Source of the DNA: Isoetes taiwanensis
Taxonomy: Eukaryota; Streptophyta; Lycopodiopsida; Isoetales; Isoetaceae
Direction: 5' to 3'
DNA length: 64,000 nt
NCBI GenBank assembly: GCA_021234155.1
Contig: JAJEKV010000058.1
Coordinates: 693,814-757,813 of the forward strand
Below the pieces are notes generated by a model. The model was not told where the DNA came from, made no database searches, and saw only the letters and a program-made list of their open reading frames with translations. Position numbers and translations under genes: made by a program. This document shows, piece by piece, positions 13,623 through 63,352 of this stretch (position 1 is the stretch's first letter; each line of letters starts with the position of its first letter).

Positions 13623-15257
13623 CCGATTTCCGTCTTTGATGATTAGTACGAGAGCTTTGTCTAAATTCTCTAATGAGAACATCGATGCTTTAAATAAGGT
13701 AAAATACTTACTCTCTACCTTCATTATATCAATCTGGTTCAGGTAAAATTGTTTTTGTTCGAGCAGTTTGCATTGTACATCCAGTTGCATTATTCTTTGT
13801 ATCTACCTTGAAGTTTCTGGAACCCAATATCTGGAATGTTTCTCCTGGTATTGTATTGGTGGTAGTAAATATTCATAAACATTTCTAAAGTTTGGTTAAA
13901 CTGGTAATTGTCTGAAATGTTGAAGAACAACCTGTTCAAATGTACCAAAATGGCACGTGAAAGTTTGAAATTTATGTATGTTGGCCATCCAAGACGTGGG
14001 GTCTTCCATGGCAAAATCAAAGTTGCTGATGCCTTGGGGTACTTTGTCCACAGAAAGGCTAAAGGAAGACCCATGTGTAACGACGCTGGTGACAATTTGT
14101 TTTCCTTTTCAAATATAGCAGATTGAAGTGGGTCAATTGGTATGCTTTACACATTGGTAGCCACTTCATGAACAGAATTTGCTTTTTTGTTCTCTTTGTG
14201 GTGATTGTTGTAAAACAGTCCATGCAAAATGGAATTAGCCTTAAGGAATCCAAATGACACACCATGGCCCCCCCCCCCTTTTTTTTTGGCCTTTCGACAT
14301 GCAATATTAGTGTGTAGTGTTCATGCTACTTCTGGGAAGAAGACAAACAAATTTAATTCTTACGACAGCTACTAGTTAAGGTCCTTGAATTTTAATACTT
14401 CAGATACAGATACAGGAAATTTTTCATAAAGGTGTCCATTAGGAAAGTTCAAGCATTGAAAGAAAAATGCCAGCATTATTCTCAGTTTCATATCTAGCTA
14501 AATCTTAAATAAAATCAGAAGCTTAATCAAAATGGAACAACAACTTCAGTTTCATACACGGTTTTATGTGATCGCAAATGCATGCTATTGCTATTAGTAC
14601 ACAGAGTTGTGAGTTGTTTAGTCATACAAGGTGATTATTGTAATGATCCTCTTCTGGTTATGACAGGAATTTTTGTCCGTGTTTGGCGAATCAGATCAAG
14701 AGGGAACTTCTGGTTTCCCTCAAGCAAAGGTTCATGATTCCGAAGATACTCAAATTCCAGCAAATTATGGACGGCATCTTAGTCTCACACATATTGATGA
14801 ATCAGGAAGGGCTTCAATGGTAAATGTTTCAGGCAAATCTGACACAAGGAGGATTGCAGTGGCCTCTGGGAAAGTCCTCTTGGGTCCATTGACGTTTAGC
14901 TTGGTGGCTGCTAATAAGATAATGAAAGGGGATGTCCTTACGGTTGCGCAAGTAGCTGGAATACAGGCTGCAAAACAAACTAGCAACCTAATTCCCCTTT
15001 GCCACAATATTCTGTTGTCCAGTGTTAATGTTGATCTCAGGCTAAATGAAGCTGATAATGCTGTGGATATAAATGCAGAGGTGATGTCAGTTGGTCCAAC
15101 AGGTGTAGAAATGGAAGCAATGGTTGCTGTTTCTGTTGCTTGTCTCACTGTTTATGATATGTGTAAAGCTGCATCGAAGGAAATACAAATATGCAATATT
15201 CAATTGGAGTCGAAGTCTGGTGGAAAAAGTGGAGTTTGGACAAGAGCTCCTGAATAA
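13597..15257 (+). CDS. CNX3: Cyclic pyranopterin monophosphate synthase, organellar (MoaC/CNX3), two coding exons
   Basis: CNX3 catalyses the second half of the conversion of GTP to cPMP in molybdenum cofactor synthesis, in plant mitochondria. Coding exons are 13597-13698 and 14667-15257, joined in phase 0 across a GT-AG intron, giving 230 residues. Exon 1 encodes an Arg/Ser-rich leader (MGLSKLLISRF, then STRALSKFS) typical of a mitochondrial transit peptide. Exon 2 encodes the whole MoaC fold: SGKSDTRRIAVASGKV, GIQAAKQTSNLIPLCHN with the active-site His, GVEMEAM with the conserved acidic pair, VYDMCKA with the Asp-x3-Lys active site, and the terminal SGGKSG. The start is chosen because residues 30-36 (DALNKEF) run into the family's ...VFGE region. 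No frameshift or stop was seen, so it is probably functional. It lies alone between mobile elements. Confidence 0.93.
13699..14666 (+). other. CNX3 intron (968 nt) with a C-run/T-run tract
   Basis: The intron starts GTAAAA and ends GACAG, and its removal keeps the CNX3 frame. It contains a C-run followed by a T-run (14268-14287) flanked by GGCC on both sides, and an open stretch at 13908-14126 that reads as protein but matches no family I know. The open stretch could be captured sequence or chance. Confidence 0.85.
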
Positions 15258-16929: not shown

Positions 16930-17126
16930 AATGGGCTCTATTAACCCTCCAAAGAAAGGCCGCCAGCCAGTCTTAGCTGCATAGACCCCGCCACCGCCGC
17001 AAGTTGCCTCACCTTCTTGCTTTGCTCGACGTCTCGGGCTACTTCCATACGCCATCCCCCTTCTCGCCCGCCACCACCAATCCCCACCGCCGCCCCCTCG
17101 CCAACAAATAGGAACTGTGCCTCCGC

Positions 17127-17900
17127 ATGGTCTCCTGGAATTGTCGGGGCTTCCCATGGCAGAAGGGAGATAGTCTCAACTCAGTTGCCGCAGACATGGA
17201 TCTCATCTTCCTCATAGAAACATGGGAGCATGCAGGACACATGATACCCGACTTGTCAGGATACCAGCGCTACTCAATCTTCAATGATTGCACAGGAAAG
17301 CGGGGGCATGGGGGGGTTGCCTGCTACTACCGAACGACCTTGGCACAGTCAATCTCCTTGTTCAAGACAGACAAGCACAACCGGTACCTGTGGGTGCGTG
17401 TGGAAAACTACAATAGCAGACCCCTCTTTGTGGCAGCCCGCTACTTTCCACATGCAGAAAGCAACTTCTATCACACCCATTCGGATGTGGATAGGCTGGA
17501 CCCCTATATCGATCTATATGATGACATCTGGCGGCATAAGCGGTTAGGCGGTGTCATACTCCTTGGAGACTTCAATGCGCCGCGACCGGGTAGAACAATG
17601 CATGAGATTTGATCCCTTGATCGATGATATATTGCAGTGCGTCCCGCGAAGGAGCTTGGCCACGGACATCGATGACAATCGTGTCACGCTATGGTTGATA
17701 GATTGCTTTTGCTCTGCGGTATCTTTGACACGGTAATCTACAATGGGTAGCACGGTGGCCGTCCACCAAGAAACACTTGTAGGCAGGGAAAACCAGGGGA
17801 GGGAGGATCTAGTGTGGTGGACTATGTCTTTGGTGCTGGCGAAAGGATATGCATGTCGTCAAGCACTTCCGTGTGGGAACAACTAATAGTGATGAAGAGA
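17127..17900 (+). pseudogene. LINE A endonuclease (EEP family) remnant
   Basis: The frame starts MVSWNCRGFPWQKGD, the N-terminal WNxRG motif of LINE endonucleases. DLIFLIETW follows (usual catalytic-Glu region), then GGVACYYRTTL, VAARYFPHAES and LLGDFNAPRP, the catalytic GDFN block, near 17565-17590. After a frameshift the next piece (about 17812) reads GSSVVDYVFGAGE, the usual motif before the final SDH. The SDH itself is not clear. The endonuclease nicks target DNA to prime reverse transcription; this copy is broken. Confidence 0.85.
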
Positions 17901-18299
17901 TCGACTGCACCACTTACCACTCTACTTGAAGTTGGCTTGGCGTTGTGCGAACCCCTGCAACAACTCCTCACATGCCTCACCACGTTGGATTATGAACATG
18001 CGGGGGCTTATGCCCGGATGCTTATAGATGACCTGGCGCAGAAATTTTGCAATATCCTACACTAGAGCAAATGCATGACGGGCCGGTGATGTGCTTAGGA
18101 TCTTGGGCGAGAGGTGCTTTGGGATAAGCCCATTCGCGACGGACCTCCGAGAACACAACCTTCCCACGTAATCAATGGTTTGATGCGAGTGCAAGGAACA
18201 CAAACGCTGGCTCTGCCAAGTCACGCACCGCTTTACGCCCACAGAGCCGACAAAGCGATGCAGCGTCTTCCTTAAAGCTAAGAAAGCCGTACACATGCG

Positions 18300-19559
18300 G
18301 TGCATCAAAGGGAAATGTTTTACCTCCTGGAACGTCATCCCAGGACCTCTGGCGAAGGGTTCTTAGAAAGCCAGTACAAACCACAGGGAATATCACTCCC
18401 GAGCAGTGGAGGCAATACTTGCAACAGCTATACGACCCTCAGGGTGCACATGCATCATTACCCCTGCAAGAAGGCCCAGTGCTGGAAATCACAGAATCAG
18501 ACGTGGAACAAGGCTTGCAGCGTCTTGCCAATGGGAAAGCCCCAGACCTGGATGGTATGCAGGGCCGTCCATCATACCAGTGCTGACCGCCTTGTTCAAC
18601 AAGGCATTACAGGAAGGCTTCCCGCTGCAGTGGACCAATAGCAGAGTTGTTCCCATCTATAAGGCAGGTGACCACACCGCCCAACCAATTACCGAACAAT
18701 CATGGTCAGTTCGGTGTTTGCAAAATTGTTTGCTGGGATTCTCGAGCAGTAGTTGACGGGCTGGGCAAAGGCAGCGGAGGTGCGGGCCCTCATCCAGGCA
18801 AGATTCAGACCCCGGCACTCAACTATTGACCACATCTTCACGTTGCGAACTCTGGTTGAAGACAACAGGAACCGCCGTCAGGATCTATATTGTTGCTTTG
18901 TGGATTTTGCGAAGGCGTTTGACATTGTACCTCGGGAAAAACTATGGGCAAGATTGCGACAGCTGGGGGTTCTTGTAGATTTGCAGAATGCAGTGTACAG
19001 GCTATATGAAAGATGCTCAGGTCGGTTGCAGCCGACGAGCCAAGCATTTGATAGTAGTATCGGGGTTCGTCAGGGATGCCCTCTCTTCCCAACATTGTTT
19101 GGGCTTTACATTGATCAATTGAAGAGCTGGCTTGCAAATAACGAGGGCGATGGAGCTCATCTTCTCTACCAGATCATCAGACAATTAATATATGCTGATG
19201 ATGTGGACCTCCTAGCTTACACACCAGCAGACATACGACATCTCGAGGCCCTGGACACATTCTGCCAAGCGACTGATATGCGCGTCAACCTGGCCAAGAC
19301 TAAGGTGGTTTTCATATCATCTTCACGTCAGCCGAGGATTCCCTCCTTCAGTTACCGAGGGCAGAATGTGGAAGTAGCATCCACATACAAATATTTAGGA
19401 GTGGAGTTTCCTTCTACTATGTACTGGGACACATCCATACGGATACGAGTGACGGTGGGCTCGAAGGCACTATATGCAATGCAAAACAATAGTCATAGAG
19501 CGGAGTTGTATGATTGGGCCCATCAGTCACACTCGTTCAAGGTCTTAGACTTGGAATGA
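18300..19559 (+). pseudogene. LINE A reverse transcriptase remnant
   Basis: The N-terminal block ITESDVEQGLQRLANGKAPD lies near 18490-18550 in one frame, then NKALQEGFPLQWTNSRVVPI at about 18596-18655. The long frame 18753-19559 has IQARFRPRHSTIDHIFTLRT, CFVDFAKAFDIVPREKLW, GVRQGCPLFPTLF and the catalytic YADD at 19191-19202, followed by VNLAKTKVVF and STYKYLGVEF. All main non-LTR RT blocks are present. Frameshifts and a stop before 18753 disable it. Confidence 0.9.
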
Positions 19560-33929: not shown

Positions 33930-34640
33930 GGCTCAACCCCAATTACCGTGATCGTGTCAAGGCAGAAATTGACAAACTCCTTGCTGCAGGTTTGATCTAT
34001 GAGGTCAAACATTCTGAATGGGTGAGCCCCATCGCCATTGCTCTCAAACACAATGGTAAGATCCGGCTTTGCGTGGACTACCGAAACTCAATCGTGCCAC
34101 GAGGCGTGATCATTTTCCACTTCTCTTCACGCACTGTGTTCGAAGAGGTCATTGACATGAGATGTACTCCTTCATGGATGGTTTTTTCCGCTACAATCAG
34201 ATCTCAATCAAAGAATCTGATCGACTCAAGACTACTTTCACCACCCCGTGGGGCACTTTTGCCTACAAGATGGTTCCTTTTGGATTATCAAACTCTCCAT
34301 CAACGTTTCAACGCATCATGCTCTCAGTTTTTCATGATTTTATGAAGGAAAATCCCTTCCTGCAAATTTTTCAAGATGACTTCTCTGCCTACAGTTCCAT
34401 GGCTGACCATTTGGATAAATTGGAACTCGTCTTTCAGAAATGTGATGAGTCCGGCATTAGTCTCAATCCCGAGAAATGCACCTTCTGCGTCACCTCCGGT
34501 GTTCTGTTAGGACATGTTGTCAGCAAAGCAGGTATCACCACGGATCCCCGCCAAAATCGGGCCAGGTGCTCAAAGCTCACGCACCCGCCAATATCAAGGA
34601 GACACGCTCTTTCCTGGGTAAGGTAAATTATTACTCCACC
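33930..34640 (+). pseudogene. gypsy reverse transcriptase with FQDD in place of YxDD
   Basis: Blocks in order: EIDKLLAAGLIYEVKHSEWV, IALKHNGKIRLCVDYR, RLKTTFTTPWGTFAYKMVPF, GLSNSPSTFQRIMLSVFHDF, then FQDDFSAYSS (34369-34398) where YxDDF is expected, and GISLNPEKCTFCVTSGVLLG. The DDF-S ending of the box is typical of Athila/Tat elements. The Tyr to Phe and Gln changes may reduce activity. Frame changes occur at about 34095-34160 and 34555. Confidence 0.85.
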
Positions 34641-42412: not shown

Positions 42413-42446
42413 GCCTGGCTGATCCTTTATTCTGTGTTTTAAACTT

Positions 42447-43436
42447 ATGAAGATTTTATCTTGGAACCTAAGGGGTATAAAAGGCCCTCTTAAAAGAAGA
42501 CGAGCTATTGCTCAAATTAGGCAATTCAATGCTGATATTATCATGCTCCAGGAATTGAGGTTACCTCAATTTGAATGTTCTAACTTGGCAGACTGGATCT
42601 CTCCTGGTAGTAATTCCATTTGGATTGAAGCCACATGTATTTCAGGAGGCCTTTGTATTATCTGGAAAAAGCTAAATCACACTTCCATATTCAATAGCCC
42701 TTGCAAAACTTGGCAGGCTGTTACTTTTTCCTCAGCTGAGAACAACTTTGGTATAATAAATATTTATGCTTCCACAGACTCAAGAGATAGAGAATCTCTC
42801 TGGTTGAATATAGACACTTGGTTGTCAAATCATAATAATTCAACAATATTGGGGGGAGACTTTAATAATACTCCATCCTGGGATCTCAAGGTGGGTAAAC
42901 AACTCAACTTACCTTGTAATGAGAAGATCTCCTGGAATAATCTCATTGATAATCATCTCTTACATCATATTCCATCTTCAACTGCTAAATACACTTGGAG
43001 CAACAAGCAAGAGGGCAGTAAAAGAGTGTTCTGTGCCTTGGACAGATTTTACATCACAAATTTGACCAATGGCTTTTGGGACAATTGTCTGGTTACCAGT
43101 GATGAGTGCACCTCGATTTCAGACCATCAACCCCAATTCTTAACCATCAAACATGAAATCTCGATCACCAGACAAGGCAATATACCATTCAAATTCAATT
43201 GCTCTCTTTTGAAATCCGAGGCCTTATGTGCTGAATTCAAGTCTTTCTATTCTAATCTACCAAGAGTTAGCCTGAACAACTCTACATCCTTGAGGGAATT
43301 TTATGTTAATATCAAAGCAGCAAAAGGATGGATTAAAAATTGGGGAAAATTTATCATCTTCAGAAAAGTGTTGAGAAGAATAAATATCTTCATGAAATTA
43401 AGAGGGTTAGGTTGCAGCTTCAAGATGATCCTCTAA
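42447..43436 (+). pseudogene. LINE C endonuclease (L1 type)
   Basis: The frame starts MKILSWNLRGIKGPLKRRRA, the plant L1 ORF2 start with the WNxRG motif. It has DIIMLQELRLP (catalytic Glu), GGLCIIWKKL, STILGGDFNNTPSWD, and SDHQPQFLTIK at the end (SDH). It is open for 329 residues and looks complete. ORF1 ends only 34 bases upstream. A frame change at about 43340-43400 leads into the RT linker. Confidence 0.9.
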
Positions 43437-44760
43437 ATATTAATTTGCATTTATTAGAAGGTAATCTGGAAAATTCTATCAAATTAATAGAGGAACATGA
43501 GGCCAAAGGTGCTGCTATCTCTTGTAAGTTGAAATATCATGCCAATTTAGATAAGGAAAATTCCAAATTGACTGGAGACCTATTTCATTGACTAAATAAC
43601 ACTTCTTATAAGGTATGAGCAAAAATCATTGCCAATAGAGTCAAGGGCCATTTACAGAATGTTATAAGTCCTTCTCAATCTGCTTTTCTCCCAAATAGAT
43701 TTATTTTGGACAATTACATTGCTGCTGTTGAGGGGCTTCACTGGAATAGGCATACCAAACAAAATTGTATTCTTTTGAAATTAGATTTTTCAAAAGCCTT
43801 TGATACAGTTCATTGGAATTTTATTAACTTTGCTCTGAATTATCTTGGCTTCTCAGAAAAATTCATTCATTTGATTCATGGTTTGAACTCTAGATCTCAA
43901 TCTGCTGTATTGATCAATGGCTCTCCAGGCTCTTTCTTTCCTCTGGCAAGAGGGGTTAGACAAGGTTGTCCCCTTGCCCCCTATATCTTTATTGCTGTCA
44001 CTGAGATTCTCACTCGAGTGATCAACCACCAGCAGAGTCTTGGTAACATTAAGGGTTTGCTTTTGCCAGACAATACTTCAAATATGAATATTCTGCAATA
44101 TGCAGATGATTCCTTCAGCTTTCTCTAAAATGATGTCTCCAATATTAGTTCCTATCTTGAGATTATCAAGGCTTTTAGTGCAGCATCTGGCATTGCACTC
44201 AATCTCAATAAATGCAGCATTATTGGAGAGATAGACCAACCTTCTATTTGTGGAATTTCTTGCATAAACTCCTCTCAAGCTTCTAAACTATTGGGGTTAC
44301 CTTTGTCCTTGGACAGCAATATCAAGGGATTGTGGAATCCAATCATTTCCAATATCAAAAAGAAATTGAATTATTATGGAAACTGTCTTTCCATGGCAGG
44401 TAGAAGCATAATTGCCAATAATGTTATTGCAAGTTCTCACATTTATTTTTCGTCTGCCTTGCTTGTTCCAAAATCCATCTATTTACAGCTTGAGAAAATT
44501 GTTAGAAACTTTATTTGGGGCAAAAATCATCTCATCAACTGGAATTATCTTACAAAGCCAAAATCCAAAGGTGGCATTGGTTGTAAAAATCTCTTCCTTC
44601 GTGGTTCAAATTTTAGTTGGCAAGTATATCCGAAAACTCTTTTTCGTAAAAAACAACCCAGCTGCTATTTTTATTAGATATTGGTTGGAAAAGTGCAAAT
44701 TTAGAGGCCATCCAACTATTGATCATAGCCTGCTCCTGACATCTCTCCTATAATGAGAAA
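43437..44760 (+). pseudogene. LINE C reverse transcriptase with internal deletion
   Basis: After the linker (ANLDKENSKLT), the sequence jumps at about 43573 straight into WRPISL and NNTSYKV, the block that normally follows about 110-120 more RT residues, so the fingers N-terminus is deleted. The rest is present: ILLKLDFSKAFDTVHWNFIN, ARGVRQGCPLAPYIFIAVTE, the catalytic YADD (44099-44110), then SKLLGLPLSLDSNIKG and an FIWG motif. Stops and frameshifts follow. Confidence 0.85.
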
Positions 44761-46557: not shown

Positions 46558-47530
46558 GAAGAAGATAATATCTCAATTTTCAGTTTCCAAAGATTTCATC
46601 TTGGTTATGTCTAGCCCGTTTATATTCCATGCACATAACCTGATGGTCGCGACTTTCTATTCGCGATCCTCTACCACTACTTTGCCTCCTCTCCAATAAG
46701 CGTGTTGCCCATTTTGCCTGGCCTCCTTCATTTTCTGGATCTCCCCTTGCCTTATTGCCTTGTGCTTTTGTTAAATTCTCGTTTATCCATTAGCTCAGCC
46801 CTTTTCTGTAAGACCTGGGATCTATGTTCCATGCTGGCGAATTTGACCACAATGTTTCTCCCTTCTTCGGATGGCCGGCCTACTCGAAAAGCATTGATTA
46901 TACCAGGTTCCCTTTTCAGTCAAAATTTTCCGGACCTCTTCCTTTGTATTTTTATGATCCCTTTCTAACAGCCCCACAAATCTCAAATTTAACTTTCTGA
47001 CGTCGCTCTTGCTATTCCAAGACATTATATATTCGCTCATTTAATTTATTAATGGCCATAGTACCGCCTTCTTCAGCTCCCATACAAGCCTGTTGTAGGT
47101 CAGATTCTTGCCTTGGATTTTCCTTCATCTTTATTATATCCTGCCTAATAGAAATGTTTTCTGCCCTTGATTGAAGTGATTAAGTCATACTTTGCATGAG
47201 TTCAAGCATTTTCGCTTCCCAGATTGCAGCTTCTTTTTTGGAGTATTCCATCATTTCCAATATCTTCATCATTAAATTGCGTGACACAGAGATTTCGGTA
47301 AGCATCTGATATAGGAACCCTTGTGTGCTGTCAAAGCCCATCCCTGGTACAGGTTGCATCCCAACAGTAGTAGGTGGGCAAAACACAGGGGGCATTCCTG
47401 TCTGTCCCATCGTCTGTGCCATGCCAAGGGACGATTGTGCCATGCCAAGAGACGACATTGGCTGAACAGAATCGTGGTTGTACTATCCCTGTTTTATCTG
47501 ATTCGTCCCAAACTATATCAAACAAAGTTG
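46558..47530 (-). pseudogene. LINE B, 5' half: ORF1 and endonuclease start
   Basis: On the minus strand an ORF1-like region (about 47500-46822) has VSRNLMMKILEMMEYSKKEA and VRKLNLRFVGLLERDHKNTK, the LRFxGxxE pattern of L1-type ORF1 RNA-binding domains. At about 46660-46558 the endonuclease starts with LCAWNINGLDITKMKSLETE and DIIFF. The rest of the endonuclease and the RT lie in the same orientation at 20880-23790. Roughly 55-60 endonuclease residues between the two halves are missing, so bases were lost at the insertion. Confidence 0.75.
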
Positions 47531-47894
47531 CGTATTAAACGGGAGCAAATCATCGAAACGAGAGCGAAAGGAATATTCCTCAAAGATTCCTTTTTTTTTT
47601 TACAAAAGGGGATAAAACGAGGTTAAAAAAAAAAGATGCATGAAATTCTATTTTGACCCCCCCAAAAGTGACTAATTTTTTTGTGCAACGAAAGAATTGA
47701 CTTTTTTAAAGTGTCATTTTTCTTAGCAAATAGAATGTTCTTGAAGTATATTTTATGAGAGAAACCCTAATTTCAGAGGATAAAATATTTAACAAAAAGT
47801 TGAAGTTAGTCCGTAACTGAAACTGTAGTATTCTCAAAATTTGAAGATAGAATCTTCATATTCACATGCAAAATTTACAGTTTTTTTCTAAGAC
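47531..47894. other. Spacer between LINE B and the DUF7869 gene
   Basis: AT-rich, with T/A runs near 47590 and 47625. No gene is seen. It may hold the LINE B leader and the 3' flank of the DUF7869 unit. I found no terminal inverted repeat shared with the sequence after 55327. Confidence 0.45.
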
Positions 47895-50800
47895 TCAGTT
47901 ATGTGCAAAAGTATGAGGAGTGATGAAGGAGGGATCCAGGACGTCATCATGTTCATTTATGCCATCCTCATCACCTTCACTTCTTTCACTGTCACTAGAG
48001 GAAGTGCTTGAGTTATCTTCCTCATCACTATCAACAGATGGTGTAGCATTGCCACCACCTTCTTCATCCTCTTCTTCGTAATTACAAGCTTTTTTAAGCA
48101 AATTGATAGTCCTCCTCGTAGACGATTGTCAGATTTCAATTTAAAATCATAGCACAATATAGTCACGTCATTAAGGATCAGCTCATCCCTACAACCCACC
48201 TTCTTGGACTTTCTCCCTTTTCCTTGGCTTCTCATTTCTAACTCATATCTACCTTCAAAAGCATTTTCTGAGCGTGTTGCAAGCCAATGAATCTTGAGTT
48301 TAGTGACTAAGCCTTCCTCCTTGACTGTGTCAAGCACTTTTGCTATCCGAAAGGTCGATTTGTCATCCTCCTCGGTTGGAAGAGCAATTAGCATACCCTT
48401 GGTAATTTCGTGTGATATTACCTTGAGGCTCATTCCTGCGTCTTGGTTCGAGGTACATGACTCGATCCTCGCTCTTCTTCTAACTCGCAGGTGCTAATGT
48501 AGCATTGCTTGGACCTGCTTGGTGTTTGGGGTTGATGGAAGGTGTTAGGCCATCCAAATGGTTCTTGCAACCGTCTTAGAGCTATATTTTTTCACAACAA
48601 TTTTTTTGTTCGAGAAAGAAATTACTCCACCACATCCGATCTTCTTCTAAGAAGTACTTAAAGCCCGAGGAAATTCCATTTTCATGGCTTTTAAGGATGA
48701 CTCGGGGTACTTTTCTTCCTTTGGACTCCTTAGGATTTTTGAGAGGAAGTTGTTCTCGCACGCTCTATGAAGGAAGTGTCCGGAATATATTTAAGGAAGC
48801 GTAATCCTCTCGGTGGACTCCAGTCCGGTGGTATACTTCTTCCCCAGAAGAAACTTCGCCATCCTTCAAGTAGAACTTGATGTGATGTTGAAAGGTGAGA
48901 TCATTCAACTTGTTCACGCCTTGTTCTCTCATGCAACGTTGAGAGAAAATAAACTCTCTGAAATCAGCAGTCTCCTTAAGAAGATCGATCACTGAAGTGG
49001 GAGTGTAAGAATCTTCAATAATTCGAACTAGTGTAGGAAGAGAGAAAGCCTTCTTCCTTCTAAGGCGCACAGAAAATCTGCTGAACATTTGGTCAATTTG
49101 ATCATGAGTGTGGCCTACAAGTAAGAAACCGAGCTTCACTTTTCTAAAGATCCCTAGCTCCACTAACATAGCACAGTATGCAAAGAGTGTTTGATTCTTG
49201 TTCTCCCTTGTAGTGTTGTCAAGTTGCAGGTAAAGCACTGGTGGTAATTGCTCTTGCTCGCACAGGACCTTGTTAAGAATTGTAATTGTGAGGTTCGGGT
49301 CACCATGCAAGTTTGGATATGTCAAAAATACTTTGCACTTTAGACTTCCTTTGAAGACCATAGCTCCTACAAGGTGGACCTTAACAAAACATTCCTCCGC
49401 ACATCTTTAGGAATGTTCAAGAATTGTGGTAGAGTAGTTTTTTTTGGTCCATTCCATCAATCACAACAGACATATATATTGCGGTGGACGTTCAAGAGCT
49501 TTTTTTCGTGGCTTGGCAAGCTTTCTTCTCTCTCTGCGCTTGTTGTTCACGATGTCCGGCAAGGTTCTCATTGCACAATATCTCAGAAGAAATCAGGTCA
49601 AAGCACTTTCTTTAAAACAAGTGAGAGATTGGAGAACGTGAGCTTACTTCTTTCGACCTCTGTCTTTGCAGTTTCTCGTTGACTCTTTAATTCTGCACAC
49701 CTTGAGCAAACAGACATTCTATGTTTTCTGGGAATTTTCACAAGACCGAATTCACTTTTCCACAAAATCGGTGAAGTGTGAGTAAGAGATGTCTTTGAAG
49801 CCGAAAGCAAGTCTCGTTGTACTCATTGAAAACATCTTTTTGGTGATGTTATCGCTTAAATGATACATGTTGTCATTAGGTAGTTTCTCACATGTTTCTC
49901 TGAAATATTTCTCCATCCATGACACAAAGAAAAAGGGCATGCATGGTTACAACTCTTCTTGGTCCACAATGATCATCGATTGCTGGATTTTTGTCCAGTC
50001 TTTTATGTATTCTAGACATTCTGGTGGACCCTAAACGGTGGACAACCATAAAACATTTCTGGCAAACTTCTTCACGGTTAATGTAGTGCAAGAAGGTGTT
50101 GCGGTCTGGTTTTACATGATAAGCTAAGTAGGCATTCTGGTCTGCCAATGTCATGGAACTGTAGTTGTCTCTAACTGCCCGTAATTTAGCCATGTTAAAT
50201 CTGTTAATGCAACCCAATGAGCAGCATTTAGTTCTCAAGAGTTTCCTCATTTTGTGTTCATCCATAAGATTTCTTCTTCTTACAGAGGAGCACGCCCTCA
50301 AACCAAAATCCACCTTGAATTTCTTCGAAGATTGGCTGGAGAACATGTAATCTCTTTGTTCCTCGTTGGGGTTTTCATCTTCTGATGAAACTTCTACTCT
50401 GGGGGTGACTTCCTCTGTCCTGAGTGGTGTGTTTGTAGAGGAAAACAGACCACGTGAAGTTGTTCCCGGAAAAGGCGGTGGTACAGTGTTAAAGGATGGT
50501 GATGGCCCATAAGAGGTTGTGGCATCAGCTGTTCTTGTACCATCTTGAAAAGGAGTTCTTGCAAACATCTCCTTTAGAGCGGACTGGAATTCTGCAAAGC
50601 CATGTGTCACAACCGTTGTGTGAAGAGGAGTGCATGCTGGAGCATCGTCCTCATTTGTAGTGAAGTCCTGGTGAGAGAAATTGTAGTGAATCTCACAGTC
50701 TTCTTTACTTTCTGTGTTCCTTGTATGTTTGAATGAAGGGGGCGAAGCTACAAATGGGGGGGAGGGGAGTAGCTTGTTCTTGAACACCCGTTGTTGTGGA

Positions 50801-51062
50801 GCTTCTGTAGGTCCCGGGGATGGAACAAAGGGTGGTGGCAACATGCTCCGAACAGGACTTGGTGACGGTTGGAAGGGTGATGGAAGTCTGTTACGTGCTG
50901 GACTCGGTGTGTCTTCGAGAAGCAACAACGACGAAGATGATGTAGGAGTCGGAGAATGCCGGTCTTCAGTAGAAATAACGTTGTTCCCAAGCGTGTCCTC
51001 AGAACTAGACGAGTTTGAGACAACAAAAGGTGGTGGAAGCTTGTTCACGAAGCGGTTCGTCA
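47895..51062 (-). pseudogene. DUF7869-domain protein gene, frameshifted
   Basis: Start chosen at ATG 51060-51062 (MTNRFVNKLPPPFVV). The first 270 residues are Pro/Ser-rich and repetitive (LPSPFQPSPSPVRSMLPPPF). A Cys/His region follows (LLRTKCCSLGCINRFNMAKL, then EEVCQKCFMVVHRLG). After frameshifts come VKIPRKHRMSVCSRCAELKS, VVIDGMDQ (about 49447-49467), LYLQLDNTTRENKNQTLFAY (about 49180-49230) and FLLVGHTHDQIDQMFSRFSV (about 49070-49125). These three blocks are what I recall as the DUF7869 core; their Asp spacing suggests an RNase H/DDE-like fold (inference). A C-terminal domain (48433-47957) and an acidic tail (EEEDEEGGGNATPSVDSDEE) end the gene. Function unknown. At least five frame changes make this copy inactive. 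It faces away from the methyltransferase gene. Confidence 0.75.
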
Positions 51063-51817
51063 TTTTAACAACTGCAAAATAGTGAAGAGATTTGAGAAAC
51101 CTTCTGTAGTGCAGAGCTTTTCTTATTCCCGAATACACGCCCACGTAGTACAAGTAGAAGTTCCAGTACTAATCAAGTGAAAGTCAAAATAAAAGCTATT
51201 CTGGAATACACAGGATTAGGATAATAGAGCCAAACGTATTCCGCTTCACATAGGAAAAGTGCAAGACGAAAATGATACCTTTAAAAGGAAATTTCGGCGC
51301 CTTCAGTTGCGTATTCCAGTCTCTGAGCTCAAGTCGCCAGCGCCAGCGCCTTCGATTAAAATATTCAGAGACTGTATTCCGATCGACATAGAGAAAAATG
51401 GAGAGGTGAGTTAGAAAGTACAACGTACAATCATTTGTGTGCTTGTTTGTTATTCCCGAATACACTATCGCCTTCACTCGAAGGCGAAGGTGTATTCCGG
51501 AATACACTTTCGACTTCGCGTGAAGGCGAAAGTGTATTCCGGAATACACTGTCCACTTCTGGGTTTGAAAGGTCTTTTCTTGCGCTATTTTTAGGCGTTT
51601 TTTAGGCTTTTTAGACTTGTTTAAGCCTGTTTTTGTGTCAAGGTTGCACTCTTGTTTTTGCCTTTTTGACCTGTTTTTGTACTATTTTGTCTTTTGTTTA
51701 AGACATTTTGTATTCTGGAATAGCTTTCTACCACTGTTTTCACTAACAAAGTCGTGTTTACACTTAAATGTGTACAGGCAAGAAAGCGGCAAGAAACATC
51801 AGAAGAAGCCCATCAAG
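51063..51817. promoter_or_regulatory. Shared divergent spacer with palindromes at 42-bp spacing
   Basis: The 755-bp region between the two divergent starts holds six copies of the ATTCYRGAAT-type palindrome: 51124-51133, 51199-51208, 51452-51461, 51494-51503, 51536-51545 and 51712-51721 (the first and third read ATTCCCGAAT). Three of them, centred at 51456, 51498 and 51540, are exactly 42 bp apart. Half copies (GTATTCC) occur near 51235, 51313 and 51374. A possible 3' splice site (TGTACAG, ending 51779) suggests an untranslated first exon of the methyltransferase gene here. This region is the likely bidirectional promoter. Confidence 0.6.
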
Positions 51818-52552
51818 ATGTCCCAGAAGCCGCACCCACAGAGAAGGGTTGAAGACGATGCTGCGCCTGCGATTTACGAAAACCCTCAAACGCAGTGGTT
51901 CTTTACTAGAGGAACATCTGGAAAGTACAGTACCCTTACCTTCTTGCATGTTTGTCGGAGTGCTGGGAATAAAAGGTACGATGACAGAGAGTTTGTTTGC
52001 ATGGGCACCATACAAGCTGTTAGTGAAATAGCCGGGGAGTCAGGACAACGAGGCAGACTACCCTTTGCGACGACCCAAGGATTTATTCATGTTGATGAAG
52101 CCTACTTTAGAATGATCAAAGTAAACCCGCCGGCGCTTTACAAGTATGTGTCTCACTACATCAACAAGAAACCGCTCAGTGTGATAATCAATGAGATTCG
52201 AAGCACAACAAGCGAAAACTTCGCTTACAGCGAGTCAGAGAAGGGGGAAGAGGAAGATAATGGGAGTGCTTCAGTGAGCCCATCAGGGAGCCCATCAGGG
52301 GGGTCATCAGATGGAGGGTCCCAAGAATAAGAAGCAGATGTTCCGCCAGTGCCGCCAAAAAAACAAAGCAGGCCAAGAGCCAACATAGCCGCTAAGGAAC
52401 CAAAGAAGCGGAAGGTAAAGCAGCTTGAAGTTGCTGAAATCGACGAGGAACAACCAAAAATGAAGAAGGGAAAGGGCAAGGCTCCTGGGGTGGCCATTAA
52501 AGAAAAGAAGGTGGATAAGACCTCAGAGAGGATGGAACAAATAAATCTTAAC

Positions 52553-52966
52553 AAGTACGTTCAAGGGGTAATATACTTGCCAGTAACTTCCATGAGGTTG
52601 CCACTGAAGAATGAAGCTGGTGAGCGCCCCCTTCAGGTTCGAAAAATCTATGCTGATCATTTAAGAAATTTGAAGGACAGAATAAAGAGCAACCCCAATG
52701 CCCATGTTGCTCCAATTGTTGTTCTTGTTGATGTAACCCGATTGCATGGACCCCAAGGACTACTGACGAGAAAAATACTGATTACTTACATGCACTATGT
52801 CCTTGGGGGAAACCACCGCTTCAAAGCAAGGAGACAGTTTGTACAAAGAAAAACAACCCAAGATATCTCTCGTGCTCTGCTTGTTCTTTCTCGTGGGCCC
52901 GACATTGCATTTAAGAAGCCAAAATCGTTGCCAACACGCACAATGCTGACAACGAATATAAGCTGA
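52553..52966 (+). other. ParB-like nuclease-fold domain within the methyltransferase gene
   Basis: Residues from NKYVQGVIYLPVTSMRLPLK to KARRQFVQRK match the N-terminal ParB/Srx-like fold, whose GxxR/GGNHR loop binds a nucleotide or phosphate in the family. After a frameshift near 52925, VANTHNADNEYKLKMSFVDK and IRFMHREYM continue the helical part. ParB-like domains fused to beta-class methyltransferases are known from phages and mobile bacterial DNA; a eukaryotic intron-bearing version is unusual. Confidence 0.7.
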
Positions 52967-53538
52967 AAATGAGCTTTGTGGACAAAATCAGGTTCATGCA
53001 CAGGGAATATATGATATTTAAAGACAAATATGGAGATGATTTGAAGAAACCACAATACTCATTGGAACTAAAGGAAGCGTGTCTTTGTGGAGTGTCAGCC
53101 AAATACGGCGAGGCTAACAAACGGCGCCTCTAATACCACACGACAACCGGTTCCAAATAGCCTTCGAGATGGCAGAGTAAGTTGTTTTTGTATTCTGGAA
53201 TACCCTGCAGCCCTCCCACTGATATCGCTTTCTTCTCTCCAGATTTGGGACCTATAAAACGAAATATTCACCATGTTCGAGCGTGGTGATTTGAAAAGCA
53301 AAGGAAAGGTCTCCGAAAAGAAAAAAGGATCCGACGTCCCCAAAAAGGAAATGACAATCACCGTGGTGGCGAAAATGCGTGGGCTTCCGCGGATATGGAT
53401 ATACTAGAAAGGCTACGCAAAAAGGTTGTCGATAAAGAATTTACACTCAAGAAATGTCCAAGGAGCTCCACAAGTAAGAATGCCACTTTGTTTTTTGTTT
53501 GGTAGGGAGAAGTGTAGTTCGAAAAACATTGGCTCACA

Positions 53539-53790
53539 CACGAAGGCCAAAGTGTATTCCGGAATACACTTTGGCTTTCATGTGTGAGTCAAAGTGTATT
53601 CTGGAATACACTTTGCCTTTCGTGCGAAAGACAAAGTGTATTCCAGAATACACTTTGGCTCACACGGCAAAGTGTATTCCAGAATACACTTTGACTCACA
53701 CACGAAAGCCAAAGTGTATTCTGGAATACACTTTGGCTTTCGTGTAAGAGCCAATGCGTATTCCAGAATACACTTTGGCTTACAGTTTTT
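53539..53790. repeat. Intronic array of six 42-bp-spaced palindromes
   Basis: Six palindromes with the core GTGTATTCYRGAATACAC are centred at about 53560, 53602, 53644, 53680, 53722 and 53764. The spacings are 42, 42, 36, 42 and 42 bp. Outer arms (CCAAAG...CTTTGG, and CTCACACACGAA with its inverse) extend the symmetry to more than 50 bp for the first unit. The array fills most of the intron at 53474-53857 of the methyltransferase gene. The transcript would form a row of hairpins. Single copies also lie in the introns at 53192-53201 and 54598-54607. Confidence 0.95.
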
Positions 53791-55327
53791 TGAATAGTTC
53801 TTTCTTGTTGCTTTCCTTTTTAGTTTTCTTCCTTCTAACGTTTGTGTGGTGTTACAGCCAGAAAAATGTCATCACATGTCAAACCTGCTTAATGGAACAA
53901 TTAAATGTTGACAGCTGGGAAAGGTGCAAAGAGCTTTATCCTATCGCAACCTCAGACGAAAGGATTGTCCAGTATGCCTCAAATGTTGAAGGCTGGGTAT
54001 GTTGATTTGTTTTTTATATTGTTGTTTTTCTTGTTACTAGGACGTTCTTTTTTGCAGAGCAAAAAGAAAAACAAAGACCTGCCGGAGGGCTTCATGCACT
54101 TGGTCGTGACAAATAGAGAAGAGAGGGAGGGGCGGACAAAAGTGTTCTAGATTCTGAGCCCTCCGATTACGAAAGGTTTACAATGTTCGATCAAAATAAC
54201 CTATTCTCTATTGTACACGGTGATTGCACCAAATTACCCAAATCAATAAAGCCCCAAGATTTTACCTTGGTAATAGCTGACCTTCCATATGGATTCAAGC
54301 TCAAAGACACCGCCACGTACTCTGACGACCCGACCATTTAAAAACTCGAGTTTAATGCTTTTCGTCGACGCATATAAAGATTACCACGCGGCAAAACATT
54401 GGAGGTTGGTCGTATTTCACTCAAGCATGCAATCCGGCCTTGTGGAAGCTGGTTTTAAAAATCATTTTGGTTCCCCTACGCAAGCTGGTTATGAAAACAT
54501 GGTTTGGTAAGCACTTATTCTGTAATACATATGTCCTTATATTTGTTTTAAGTTCTTTTCCTTTTAGTAACACCTGCGAGCAATGATAGGGGTTTCTATT
54601 CCGGAATACGTTTCCTTCGGCTGTACTTAAATCCTCTTTTCTTTTTTTGTTCTTAAGGTACAAAACAAATATAAATTACCATGGCGGAGGCCCTAGACTG
54701 TTGAGTAAAGTCGAATATCTCCACGTCGCTTATTGGAGTTTTGATGGGAAACGTACAATGGAACACTTCAACACAGCAGCGTGTCAGAACTTTTCGAACG
54801 TGTTGGAGTTTCCAGCGGTTTTGCAGAAGCTTCAGGACCCTAGTGCACAAGGAAGAATAGTGAATCACTATCAGAAGCCACAGAAGTTGATTAACCATCT
54901 TCTGGACATGTTCTCACGTCCAGGAGATTGGGTGCTCGACGCATTTTCTGGCTCTGGTACAACTATTGCTTGTGCACTAAAAAAGGGCCGTAACTGTGTA
55001 GCAATTGATATTGATAAGGAGGCTGTTAGTTTTATTAAAATGAGACTTGCTGCTTTACCAACTCTACCAGACGAGAATCAAGGGTTGGGGGCAAAGTCTA
55101 ATTCTGATTTTGCTAAGATGACATCATCAGAAATACAGCCTCCCTTTACAAGCTCCTTAGATGACGAAGCTACTTTTGCAGAGTTGAAAGAAGTAGCTCT
55201 TGCTGCCATACCGGAATCAACTACTGACACTGAGAAGCCTAAGTCACCAGAAAACGGTGAGAAGATACAAACCGACCAAGCAGAGAGCAGTAAGAAAAAT
55301 GAAGAAGACTACAATTTAGATCTCTGA

Positions 55328-56086
55328 CGGACCTTTTGCTGTGGTTAATTACTGATATTTATTATTGATTGCCATTACTGATGTAACAAAAAAACAGTAA
55401 AGAAATTATTATTATTATTTTTACTAAATTTGTGTTTTTTTATACATCCACCTACAAATAATTTTGTACTCATGTCTCAATTTTGCTATTTTCACGTGCT
55501 TCACTCCAAAAACGAAAGTCGTGTCCAAAAAATACCCCAAAACTAGGCCAAAAAAAAACTGATACTCCTAAAACTTTAAACCTCTCTTAAAAAAGCCCAT
55601 TTTTTAGAATGACGTGTTTTTTCTAAAGGAATCTTTCAAACGGGAGTGCTGCAACACTCCCGTTTAATTTGCAACCTTGTTATCAGCCCAACCTATAAAG
55701 CAGGTGGGTTTGCTACTGCAAAGCCTATTAACCCAACCTGTATCGGCCCATGTGAAACAGGTGGGTTTGCTGCTGTGATGAAAGTAGATGTTTAGCACTA
55801 CTGTGGAGAATTGGCAGATATGGAGGCTCTATTTTTCTCTAATCTTCTTGTACATAGTATAATTCCACTATGAATTTGAGCACACTACAAAAAATTTAAC
55901 ATCAACTTTTAAGTAGTTTTCACAACACATTACTTCATCTGACCACACCTAGCCTACATGTGGATATATGTGAATTACAATATGTGTTGCAACTAGTTCC
56001 ATTGAATATCAAACCTCGAATTGCTCTTATTTTTGTGCTTTGACTTGCCAGCAACTATAGCCTTATTTTTGTGCTTTAACTTGCCC
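55328..56086. other. Gene-free flank with hairpin at 55638-55665
   Basis: Non-coding. A perfect 11-bp inverted repeat, AAACGGGAGTG (55638-55648) and CACTCCCGTTT (55655-55665), has a 6-base loop. The phrase CAGGTGGGTTTGCT occurs at about 55700 and again at about 55759 in a duplicated context. CACTACAAAAAATT at 55883-55896 looks like a CACTA terminus, but no partner was found. Confidence 0.6.
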
Positions 56087-56475
56087 AAAGGGGCATCAAA
56101 CATGTTAAGAAATTGAACTATTAAATTAAACTCCTCGTCCCCCCCCACCCCTCCCCTTCTCCCCCAGTTGTTTTTGCTGATATTCGTCCATCAGTATGCT
56201 CAGGCCATTGGATGTCAGTTTCGGACGATCCCAACCATCATTAGACGCAACTCGTTTTTTAGTAAGTTTTAGTTAACTGTCAGTTTAAAATACACAATTA
56301 ACCCAAATATTGTGAGATGCATTGTACACATGTACGATACACATATATTGACGTATGTATTTGGGGCTCCTCACCAACCGTTGGACGTCCTGCACGAATA
56401 TCAGCAAAAATAACTGGGGCGGTCCGGGGGTGTTTAATTTAATGGTTCAATTTCTTAATATGTTTGATGCCCCTT
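56087..56475. mobile_element. MITE with about 110-bp inverted arms
   Basis: The left end AAAGGGGCATCAAACATGTT and the reverse complement of the right end, AAAGGGGCATCAAACATATT, start inverted arms that continue through AAGAAATTGAACYATTAAAT and on to GCTGATATTCGT. Total length is about 389 bp. C-runs lie in both arms. It encodes nothing, and no certain target duplication was found. Just outside the left end, TTATTTTTGTGCTTT..CTTGCC is duplicated. Confidence 0.8.
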
Positions 56476-58353
56476 TCAATGATTCGTTGTGCTATATCTT
56501 ACTGCATATAAAATTACTTGCTCACCTTTCCGGTTCCAAAAATAAACAAAAAAATTCCAAAATGTCCAGATTTGGAACCGGATATTGATTTCCGGGACGA
56601 AGCCATACCTTGAATAGCAAGCTCTGTGAGCCGCCTCAAACGCATAGCTTGGGCCGAGCTCACTCTGCGGATGCACCGCCGCCAGACCTGGGAAAATCAG
56701 CCTGGGCCGAGGAAGGATGGAGAAAACAGCGCAGCCACCAACGAAGTGCACCCAGAGCTAAAAAAACCGGGTAAGTTGCTGTCTCTAGCCTCAAAGTTTG
56801 CTCTGCATATAGTAACAGATATGAAATTTGCTTTGGGGCAAATGAGAATTGATTGAAAATTGTCCATTTTAGAGACTAAATAGTTAAGCTTCCCTTTTAA
56901 TTCCAGTGAAAAAATGCATCGGCTCAAAAACTACTATGTGCCTTTGAGCAATTTAAAACCAGCTAATTGCAGGATAAAACCAACCTTAGAGTAAGGGAAA
57001 ATCAGGTGGCATGGCTTTAGTTTCAAATCCGGTGAGATCAAATGGTTTCGCTCAAAAAAGACAGAATAAGGCGAAGAATTTCTATCCAGCATCATGCGAG
57101 GCAGATAACCATTGATTGAGTCGGATTACCGTCCTCTCACTGTCTGGTTTAATCGAGGTATTTTTCTTCCTTCCGATCTCTTTCTTTTGTGTTTGGCTTT
57201 GTTTTGCTGGGTTGCGTACATGGCATTGCAAAATCTATGTGCTGCAGCGGCGAATTTAAATAAATTGCTTTGACCCAGCTCTATCTGCTCTGTATTTGGG
57301 GCTTAAAAGATTGCACCCGACCCAAACTTGGTTCTGTTGATAATTTCGCTAGACAGGCATTAAAAATTGCCGTATTAAAAACATAAAACGGAATTACTGA
57401 TTCAGACATGCACGAAGAACAACCAATTCCGTCTATTCCATTATTTCGGAGCATCTAGCCATGGAATATAATCTATAAATCTGGGGCAAATATATCATTT
57501 TCTCTGTTTATTTTGAGTCGAAGATTCATGTAACTCGCTAAATTGGGCCATTTTTTTGCTTTCTCCGGCTCAAGGCAAATATTCCTCTTTCAATCAGATG
57601 TTCTGTGATTGAGATTTCGGCCAACTCCATAGTCTAATTTGGGTATCAACTTATAACGGTAAAGTCGAATTTTCAGCAAATTTTTATGGTCTGCTGCCTG
57701 AATCACAGAATTTTTCAGCAAATTTTTATGGTCTGCTGCCTGAATCACAAAATTTTTTATGTCCTGAGTTACTGGCTTTCCAAAATACAGCTTTCCTCTC
57801 TCAGATACTCTGCCCAATGAAAACTCCATAATTTCTTGCATCCGGAATGCCAATTATCATGGAATTTGCCCTCAAAACTGCAGAGACGGAATTCAAATTT
57901 TGCCGTTAGAAGCACAGGAAGAACCAAATTATAACTATGCAAGAATTGAGGGCAGCCACAGAGCTGAGAGTTTTGCGGTCCAACAGGCATGAACCGACCA
58001 TAGGAGGTCGATTTTGATCTGTAGAATTCACAGACTGCATAGAGCTCCGAGCAATCCCACTGTAGAATTTCGCCCAGATGGAGATTTAATAGTTAGAAAT
58101 TCAAACGGCGAATTGCTCTGGAGCTTCGGGACCCTTTTGTGGCATATGCATCCAAGAATGCTGCATGCCAAGCCACAATGAAAACCATTTGTTGGTTCTA
58201 TGGCTGATTTGAATCTGATATCTCTAATTGATATCTTTAATTTTGTTGCTTCTAATTGAAGCTTCTATCTCTGATATTGAATAGCTTCTGCCGCCTCCAT
58301 GTTCTTATGGAAACTTCCAGCGTGGCCTTCAAAATCCAGCCGCAAGTCCCATC
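56476..58353. other. No gene recognised
   Basis: Short open frames on both strands overlap and match nothing I know. A 43-bp near-exact direct repeat (AATTTTTCAGCAAATTTTTA...CTGAATCACA) occurs at about 57668-57712 and 57710-57752. I see no splice-supported coding signal. Confidence 0.5.
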
Positions 58354-61100: not shown

Positions 61101-62243
61101 CAATTCTTGTATTTATATATTATTATAAATAAGCTACATAATGCATGCGTAATAAATATAAATGTTGTAAAATGCAAATATGTGTGAATGTTGTACCTAA
61201 ATAGGTGCGAAAATATAAAAAACAAAGATGGCCTAGGGGTGTGCATGGGTCCAAAATTTTGTTTGGCCCTTCCGAGCCTAAGGGTAGTTCTATATAACAC
61301 GAACTCTATACTTGAAAAGTGTTGCAATGGAACTACATGGAAAATGGATCATGTGGTATGAAATAATATTAATATAGTAAAGAACATGAGATACAGGTAT
61401 ATTGTAGGATATAACGGTGTAAATATCCCTAGTCGAGCATACCTTCTTCTTTGATAGGTTGCCTTGCGACCTCAAATACCTTAGAAATATATCATGGCCT
61501 CCCAGACCATTGAAATATGCTTCGAGTCAAAGACAACCTTGTAGCAAGTAATAAAATGGACAAATAAAAGAAAACAATAACAATCATGAATCTTACACTT
61601 ACATTACAAATTGACAAACAAATGTGTAAATAATAAATAAAATGTATGCCAATATGCATAATAATATTATTATGTGTTCAGGATACAAATTTGGAATTAC
61701 ATTTCAAAAGATCCTATAAGTAAGTTTGTCCATTGACAGCAAGTTAGCTTATTACAACTTGCAACTTTGATCTCCTGTGGAATAACCCTTGCCCAACACG
61801 CAAATCACAACTATGCAATTATACAACTTGGCAAAACTTACTTCAAAGCTTTCTTCAGGTGGATGCACATGACAAGAGGCTTGCAAATTATGCTTTGAGA
61901 CGTATATCCTTTCGTTCTTCTTTGAAGGACTAAAATACAAGTAAAAGCAACGAGATTCTCATGAACATAGTACTGGACCTTGCTGCCTGCATGAACACAG
62001 CTTGCTACTCGAGCATAATAAGCTATATCTGTGTGAACTGAGGATTTGTGAATTCTAGCTCTCATACAAACAAAGCTAAACTGCAAATTTACCGTGACGA
62101 TGAATGTTGTATATCTCTTATGTAAAAATATCTATATGGCCGCAAAAGAAAGTAAGCGGTGTTAAGTACTAAAGGGACTCAACATGCATGCATTGCATGG
62201 TATGCATGCACAGTGTGCATACATTGCAAAGTGCATGCATGGT
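61101..62243. other. AT-rich spacer, no gene
   Basis: AT-rich with many TAATAAAT-type stretches. No open frame worth calling. Confidence 0.5.
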
Positions 62244-62465
62244 ATGCATGCACTATCATGCATGCACTATGTGCATGCATTGTGTGCGTGCGTGCATGCC
62301 AAAACCATAGGTTGGGAGTGCAAAGTAACAAGAAATACAACACGCGCTCTATCCATGCATGCACTATCATGCATGCATTATGTGCATGCATTGTGTGCAT
62401 GCGTGCATGCCAAAACCATAGGTTGGGAGTGCAAAGTAACAAGAAATACAACACGCGCTCTATAA
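62244..62465 (+). repeat. 111-bp tandem duplication rich in GCATGC
   Basis: Two copies (62244-62354 and 62355-62465) each contain a block of overlapping CATGCATGC motifs, then CCAAAACCATAGGTTGGGAG and AACACGCGCTCTAT. Alternating purine-pyrimidine GCATGC runs continue to the left, to about 62180. CATGCA is the RY element bound by plant B3 (ABI3/FUS3-type) factors. The Met/His/Ala/Cys-rich open frames through it come from the repeat. Confidence 0.9.
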
Positions 62466-62469
62466 ATAC
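62459..62469 (+). promoter_or_regulatory. TATA-like sequence after the GCATGC block
   Basis: TCTATAAATAC occurs at the end of the second 111-bp unit; the first unit has CTATCC instead at the same place. Together with the dense RY motifs upstream it could be a promoter, but only a 30-codon frame (ATG at about 62499) follows. Confidence 0.3.
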
Positions 62470-62499
62470 TGTTGGCACAAATACAATAGCAGAATTATA

Positions 62500-63352
62500 T
62501 GCATAGCAATGCGCGACGAATCATGTTTTGTGATATTCCTGGCTATGTTGTTTTAAAACCCCTCATCCTGATGTCCCTGCTAACCCTTTGAACCGAAATC
62601 ACAAATTTCTATGTACATTAGCCCTGAGCCGGATGTTTGAATTTTGAAATTTGAGGAACTCCTAAATGTGACTAAATTATATGGTAGGCTATCTGCATTT
62701 GTCGGTCAGCTATTAAATACCATGAGCAATTAATGGCTGACCTGCATGGATGTTGGGGGTCAAAGGCCATCCGCGAGCTAAGCTACTATAACCAGAGCCA
62801 TTCTTAGTAGGACCAGGGCTTTTATGTATAGGAATATATATCTTTACGATATGCGTTGGCGATCACAAATGAATGGGCACCGGAATCATTGATCCAAATA
62901 TTTGAACTCTCTATAGTTTTGTGTTTTTGTTTTTATGTTTAAGTTTAGTTTTGTGTTTTTTGTTCGTGTTTATATTATGTGATGGCGAGACGATGATGCT
63001 ATCACAATTAGGTGATGTGTTGAAGATGAGGTGATGATGCCATCACCAATCTACTATATCTCATGTGATCTGAAAGAACCTGTGATGCTTTTAGTCATGA
63101 TGACTTGGAGTTTCTTGGAGGATTGAGATCGAAATTATAAAATTAATAAAATGTGGAGAATTCTCTATTGTATTGGCCTCACAGGTTGCATTTAATTCTG
63201 TCTTGGCGGATTCAGGGAGCATCACGCAAAGACATTAGGTATGATTTCAATTTTCTAGCTCTATAGCGATGCTTAGGTTAGATTCCCAAGGACTGTCACA
63301 TTTATAATTGTTTATAGGCCCATAATGTGTTTCTCTTTGAAGTGTATGCTCA
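62500..63352. other. No gene recognised
   Basis: Only short frames. A GTGATG-rich stretch (about 62980-63100) and T-rich runs near 62925-62960 are seen. Nothing supports a gene. Confidence 0.5.

Follow-up and report, generated by a model that had tools for sequence, protein, structure and literature searches.

What kind of locus brings together, head to head and both in decay, a gene for a protein with a DUF7869 domain and a gene for a DNA methyltransferase of bacterial type? The question is raised by a stretch of 64,000 nucleotides from the lycophyte Isoetes taiwanensis (assembly GCA_021234155.1, contig JAJEKV010000058.1, positions 693,814 to 757,813, forward strand), which is called the window in the following and in which positions are counted from the first letter. 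An initial annotation, made from the letters of the window, had placed a divergent pair of genes at 47895..55327, here named gene A (DUF7869-type) and gene B (methyltransferase), and had proposed that they form a dead copy of a mobile element carrying its own DNA-modification gene. Comparison with other copies in the same genome bears out this proposal: the segment 47,521-55,681 corresponds to a dead copy of a multicopy terminal inverted repeat (TIR) DNA transposon. We consider it probable, if by no means certain, that it represents a family of autonomous cut-and-paste transposons, in which A is the transposase and the methyltransferase encoded by B puts a mark on the DNA of its own element, probably as a protection from silencing.

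The bounded, multicopy nature of the element was seen in a search of the genome (1,658,258,908 bases in 1110 contigs). Of 3617 candidates for exon 6 of gene B, at least 150 were scored as matches; the figures were at least 150 of 9007 for the DUF7869 exon of gene A and at least 40 of 1314 for the left 120 bp of the element. For the comparison of ends, 20 regions of 10 kb were taken by matches to gene B alone; the alignment with the window started at 47,520/47,521 in 11 of them and stopped at 55,681-55,686 in 15, and one or both ends were read in 17 regions (L024, L025 and L027 were omitted). The copy in the window has both ends, and the extent given in the initial annotation falls short of each. 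The left TIR, AACAAAGTTGCGTATTAAACGGGAG, occupies 47521..47545 (plus strand) and the right one 55657..55681 (minus strand), just outside both genes, as found by repeat scan and from the ends of the copies. The two repeats are imperfect (22/25 bases match), and their pair score of 35 is by itself within chance (the maximum among 2000 Markov-shuffled pairs was 40; the highest score of any other pair of window segments separated by 8 kb was 33); the boundaries of the element therefore rest on the copies and not on this score. A subterminal inverted repeat (AAACGGGAGTG...CACTCCCGTTT, 55638..55665) is present in the window sequence at the right end. From the end reading of the copies, the target site duplication, ATCA, lies at 47517..47520 on the left and 55682..55685 on the right. 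Perfect 4-bp direct repeats flank 10 of the 11 copies which were readable at both ends, window included (ATCA, CATT, TAAG, TAAG, AACT, GGTT, TAGA, ATAC, TTTA, CTAA); the sole exception, L021, has no perfect 4-bp duplication. The shared ends with inverted repeats, together with the 4-bp target duplications, identify the element as a TIR DNA transposon, and terminal repeats and duplications, which the initial annotation had suggested to seek by aligning full copies, were found in this way. One further copy, L012, has proper ends and a TAAG duplication, and no more of it than these ends and a portion of gene A can be aligned to the window; it is likely a non-autonomous or interrupted derivative.

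The two genes are linked in copies elsewhere in the genome. Pieces of gene A were present on the opposite strand in 15 of the 20 regions selected by gene B. In addition, 12 regions were selected by gene A, two of them (L029 and L030) for their long open frames and ten by taking approximately every seventh row of the list of A matches, skipping regions already in use; two of these ten were known beforehand to have gene B near. Divergent pieces of gene B were detected in 2/2 and 8/10 of them, respectively, i.e., in 10 of 12. Among the matches listed, 150 per gene, all 26 A-B pairs within 8 kb were divergent, with a spacing of 5.1-6.2 kb, as were 39 of the 42 pairs within 30 kb; the adjacent divergent pairs that had been predicted are thus a recurrent arrangement within this genome. 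One could think of a chance junction between two unrelated insertions, or of the remnant of an integrated large virus, as LINE-like genes (LINE, long interspersed nuclear element) are near in the window and bacterial-type methyltransferases occur in viruses. Such an origin is hardly credible: other loci share the ends, the gene order and the 4-bp duplications, by which a junction is ruled out, and scans of IMG/VR gave no confirmed relative of either gene. In this genome, the genes are neither unlinked single-copy loci nor the two sides of such a junction.

Gene A (47895..51063, minus strand), delimited by profile match and frame reading, is broken by frameshifts and stops. It matched DUF7869 (PF25273, E 2.6e-51), the sole Pfam match above cut-off. 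In copy L029 gene A is a single open frame of 987 codons; the gene is therefore regarded as intronless, and introns are ruled out. In a set of 30 diverse DUF7869 proteins, two aspartates, D476 and D518 in the numbering of protein P0005, do not vary, and a third, D395, occurs in at least 90%, P0025 from Ceratopteris having N at this position. The spacing of the three residues suits a DDD triad, and DUF7869 is likely, on sequence grounds, to be the transposase of the element. Searches of PDB sequences with DUF7869 gave no significant solved relative (best E 0.42 in one search, none in another), and no mention of DUF7869 was found in open-licence papers of PubMed Central (PMC). The 118 relatives that were found include many from Riccia sorocarpa and a few from Ceratopteris, Adiantum and Cymbomonas. 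If DUF7869 acts as a transposase, a function would be gained for an unnamed family with many members in a liverwort, Riccia sorocarpa, and some in two ferns and a green alga. Two of the relatives carry annotations of a second domain, PF04937 in P0116 from the alga Cymbomonas and PF00665 in P0041 from Adiantum; these combinations are perhaps merged gene models.

Gene B, on the plus strand, has six exons and five introns, which were delimited by the alignment of copies. Exon 1 consists of 8 nt (ATGGAGAG, 51398..51405) and is followed by intron 1 (GT-AG, 51406..51777). Exon 2 (51778..53176) codes for an uncharacterised N-terminal domain, a linker and a ParB-like region, the last of which was recognised from other copies; in the window it is interrupted by a TAA stop (52328-52330) and by one or more frameshifts. 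Then follow intron 2 (53177..53242), exon 3 (53243..53473), intron 3 (53474..53857), exon 4 (53858..53996), intron 4 (53997..54057), exon 5 (54058..54506), intron 5 (54507..54657) and exon 6 (54658..55327). By our count, GT or AG was found at 104 of 110 splice boundaries in 11 aligned copies; in four cases the boundary was altered (L016, donor 5; L011 and L030, acceptor 3; L013, acceptor 5), and in two it was missing (L028, donor 1; L020, donor 5). Since gene B starts with the 8-nt exon, the divergent spacer between the two start codons is 334 bp long (51064..51397) and not 755 bp, as had been stated initially. The decay described for both genes was evident, stops and frameshifts breaking both reading frames.

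Exon 6 of gene B matched the N6/N4 DNA methylase family PF01555 (E 4.5e-18, 66.4 bits as against a cut-off of 26.7), in agreement with the divergent DUF7869 and methyltransferase genes of the initial annotation. Motif IV of methyltransferases, located in exon 5, reads DLPYGF in 18/22 rows of the alignment, and motif I, located in exon 6, reads LDAFSGSGT in 20/23 rows. In beta-class amino-methyltransferases motif IV precedes motif I. Judged from its sequence, gene B encodes a beta-class N6/N4 amino-methyltransferase of bacterial type; its best match among the phage families of PHROGs was phrog_67, a DNA methyltransferase (E 4.8e-26). The initial annotation had described a fusion of ParB and a methyltransferase, of which the methyltransferase stands and the ParB label is weak. 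No ParB family was among the Pfam matches of gene B proteins from the window and the copies. In L011 and L030, the two copies whose exon 2 is open over a long stretch, the only NCBIfam match was TIGR03764, a ParB model (E 7.1e-4 and 0.041, respectively), its best score being 19.3 bits, far below the curated cut-off of 143.75; DUF6551 matched at the same place (E 0.039 in L011 and 0.0086 in L030). No curated cut-off was reached by the ParB-like part. With the ParB-like part as query, there was nothing significant among PDB sequences, no match by tblastn in phage and plasmid sequences, and one match in PHROGs with E 0.17; a 109-aa piece of it gave none in NCBIfam. The region reads GGNHS in 11/18 rows and GGNHR in the window. 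A remote relationship to ParB appears likely.

In the protein database which contained the 118 relatives of DUF7869, the read-through protein of gene B had one relative, a distant methyltransferase; since the search requires shared words and a certain length range, few relatives of gene B do not equal absence elsewhere. With the methyltransferase part alone, 146 related proteins were obtained. Among the 120 matches listed, two are close, P0120 and P0121, with identities of 84% and 72%, respectively, to the last gene B exon and with different tails; the remaining ones are bacterial wherever an organism is named. Because of the one distant relative, as compared to 118 for DUF7869, and of the bacterial affiliation of the other methyltransferases where named, gene B may be a lineage-specific acquisition.

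A second feature shared by the copies is a 16-bp palindrome, TGTATTCCGGAATACA, for which a motif scan with up to 3 mismatches gave 15 matches in the window, compared to 0.23 expected; 14 of the 15 are in the element locus. In the window copy they are situated in the spacer (51122 and 51195), in intron 1 (51449, 51491, 51533 and 51709), in intron 2 (53189), in intron 3, as an array of six mostly 42 bp apart (53553-53772), and in intron 5 (54595, and a looser copy at 54516), with none in intron 4. The occurrence of the same palindrome in spacer and introns, noticed initially, is thus confirmed, except that four of the six palindromes assigned to the spacer lie in intron 1. Across 11 element copies, 137 palindromes were counted with the same tolerance, and none was present in gene A, in exon 2 or in exon 6 of gene B; in the copies other than the window, introns and exons 3 to 5 were counted together. 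Each of the 11 copies contains the 12-bp core, TATTCNNGAATA, 8-19 times, compared to 0.007 times expected. At its centre the 16-mer has CG in 67, TG in 45, CA in 17 and CC in 8 cases, mostly as CpG decay predicts. In the genome as a whole, inside and outside elements together, 6387 places correspond to AGTGTATTCCGGAATACACT with up to 2 mismatches, and the reversed control gave 0. Another possibility is that the palindromes are bound by a host transcription factor which activates both genes, with gene B acting elsewhere. Two palindromes between the start codons and four in intron 1, near both promoters, would be in keeping with this, and so would the core TTCNNGAA, which resembles part of a heat-shock element; the palindromes of introns 2, 3 and 5, the farthest of which lie about 3 kb away from the spacer, are not, and we regard such a role as quite unlikely.

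Several results weigh against an autonomous element served by its own methyltransferase, and are given here together with the data on selection. Not one of the 11 aligned copies has an intact gene B. No partner gene was found in 5 of the 20 regions selected by gene B and in 2 of the 12 selected by gene A, and 3 of the 42 pairs within 30 kb were on the same strand. Distances between copies in gene A track those in exon 2 of gene B (r 0.88; 0 of 2000 shuffles as high), whereas r for gene A and exon 6 of gene B is 0.09 (407 of 2000 shuffles as high), so that A and the catalytic half of B cannot always have travelled together. As to selection, the median pairwise ratios of nonsynonymous to synonymous substitution rates (dN/dS), all from alignable stretches only and from pairs which are not independent, were 0.24 for the N-terminal piece of gene B (50/136 pairs usable), 0.19 for the ParB-like piece (126/136) and 0.10 for the last exon (243/253), the latter biased low because the copies had been picked by likeness to exon 6; for three pieces of gene A they were 0.33 (136/136), 0.39 (101/120) and 0.39 (103/105). 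Pairs too close, saturated or too short were dropped. Values of 0.8 or higher were found in 0, 1 and 0 pairs for the three pieces of gene B, in the above order, and in 3, 6 and 11 pairs for those of gene A; dN/dS is low in both genes. A captured passenger, useless to the element, would agree with the lack of an intact gene B and with the single distant relative of its read-through protein, and we hold it to be very improbable, since the medians for the exon 2 pieces and exon 6, as well as the splice sites kept across diverged copies, disfavour uselessness.

Distances in exon 6 of gene B track those of the right end (r 0.85). From the distance correlations and from identities that differ along the element it follows that the copies recombine and are mosaics. 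In gene A, positions 47,821-50,220 are 83-97% alike in all comparable copies, and at 51,421-52,320 the identity with the window falls into two groups, 57-66% for 7 of 10 copies and 84-97% for the remaining 3. A central block (window 50500-52320), which spans the promoter region, intron 1 and the beginning of gene B, exists in deeply diverged forms, whereas the flanking coding parts do not; in four copies the diverged block takes in the start of gene A as well. At about 54300 the closest relatives of the window copy switch along the element, as if two subfamilies had recombined in it.

How the two genes might act together is suggested by a comparison with VANDAL elements. In VANDAL21 of Arabidopsis, introns of both VANC21 and VANB21 contain arrays of a short motif, as does the region upstream of VANA21, and coding probes without the motif were bound poorly (PMC5735166). 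The Isoetes element resembles VANDAL and MuDR in being a plant DNA transposon with an accessory gene and a tandem motif in the accessory introns and upstream of the transposase gene; motif arrays in its non-coding DNA, as VANC-like self-recognition would have them, are present. It differs in transposase family, duplication length, accessory family and motif, which is palindromic in the Isoetes element. The element does not fit MuDR/VANDAL, since the target duplication is 4 bp as against about 9 bp for Mutator-like element (MULE) transposons, and no MULE transposase family was among the Pfam matches of gene A. VANC is not known to be a methyltransferase. The VANDAL21-like layout with a methyltransferase in the place of VANC suggests that the product of gene B recognises or modifies the palindromes.

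According to the proposed mechanism, the DUF7869 protein of gene A would bind the inverted repeats of about 25 bp and, as the putative catalyst, insert the element with 4-bp target duplications. The amino-methyltransferase of gene B, specific for N6-adenine or N4-cytosine and joined to other domains, would be recruited to the palindromes TATTCCGGAATA or would modify them; this presupposes that the palindrome can be bound by B (or A) and methylated by B. Modification of palindromes in its own spacer and introns would mark the DNA of the element, and the mark would most likely keep promoter and introns free of host silencing, as VANC proteins do for VANDAL elements; protection from silencing would thus be the outcome, by analogy. 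The main rival, which we think unlikely, is that the methyltransferase serves transposition and not protection from silencing, methylation of the element timing or limiting the action of the transposase. Dam methylation acts in this manner in bacterial IS10/Tn10. In virus-borne Mariner elements, too, methyltransferases are neighbours of transposase and endonuclease genes (PMC3627910), and the low dN/dS of gene B as part of the element would fit; the conserved palindromes, which lie in spacer and introns and away from the ends, the sites of transposase action, would not. We thus prefer marking of the element against silencing. A more far-reaching version is put forward tentatively, with somewhat less than even confidence: the element would represent a new plant superfamily, characterised by DUF7869 and 4-bp duplications, whose methyltransferase, derived from bacteria or from viruses of bacteria, would write N6-methyladenine or N4-methylcytosine at its own palindromes and so evade silencing, while a fast-evolving central block (the shared promoter, intron 1, the N-terminal domain of B and, in some subfamilies, the start of A) would diverge as one unit.

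Mobile elements with DNA-modification genes are already known (PMC5890265, PMC3627910, PMC12730594). Virus-borne Mariner elements are similar in that a DNA transposon encodes a methyltransferase besides its transposase, and differ by the Mariner transposase, an extra endonuclease, methyltransferases of the Methyltransf_26 or cytosine C5 types, and their carriage by viruses (PMC3627910). Among retrotransposons, methyltransferases were described in DIRS (Dam-like), SymbioLINE-Dnmt and KnitGypsy-Dnmt3, with purifying selection reported for the last (Ka/Ks below 0.2) (PMC5890265); these likewise possess a DNA methyltransferase of their own, but they are retrotransposons, and their enzymes, except for the Dam-like one of DIRS, are of the cytosine C5 type. 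Fungal DNA transposons of several known superfamilies, too, carry a DNA-modification gene, but the enzyme oxidises methylcytosine. Sola2 has 4-bp target duplications, TIRs and a large transposase (888 aa in DFa-2) in common with the Isoetes element, but its duplications are AT-rich (AWWT in one host; PMC3627910), and none of the ten perfect ones in the Isoetes element fits AWWT. Among the open-licence PMC papers listed, no report of an element with DUF7869 and an amino-methyltransferase was found. The element is possibly a new transposon superfamily; Sola was also considered, on the basis of the target duplications and not of the protein sequences.

Methylation of adenine and of N4-cytosine in the DNA of land plants is disputed, and few enzymes for it are known. 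A bacterial-type amino-methyltransferase with low dN/dS in a plant transposon, together with one palindrome repeated thousands of times in the same genome, provides a defined enzyme, defined candidate sites and a ready assay. In bdelloid rotifers, bacterial N4-methylcytosine reportedly functions as an epigenetic mark (PMC8885841); there, too, bacterial-type amino-methylation is at work in a eukaryote, with the difference that the mark is the host's.

Several other features were noted in the window. An exon of a host molybdenum cofactor gene of the MoaC family (PF01967, E 3.2e-53) is present at 14664-15257. Two units resembling LINEs, at 17112-19559 and 42423-44128, have endonuclease and reverse transcriptase domains; a further reverse transcriptase lies at 34156-34626. 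Adjoining the transposon, at 56087-56476, is an inverted repeat of about 390 bp in total, with 48-nt arms which are 94% alike and a second, nested pair; it resembles a miniature inverted-repeat transposable element. A repeated peptide (QNHRLGVQSNKKYNTRSI) in an open frame at 62156-62506 points to a tandem DNA repeat.

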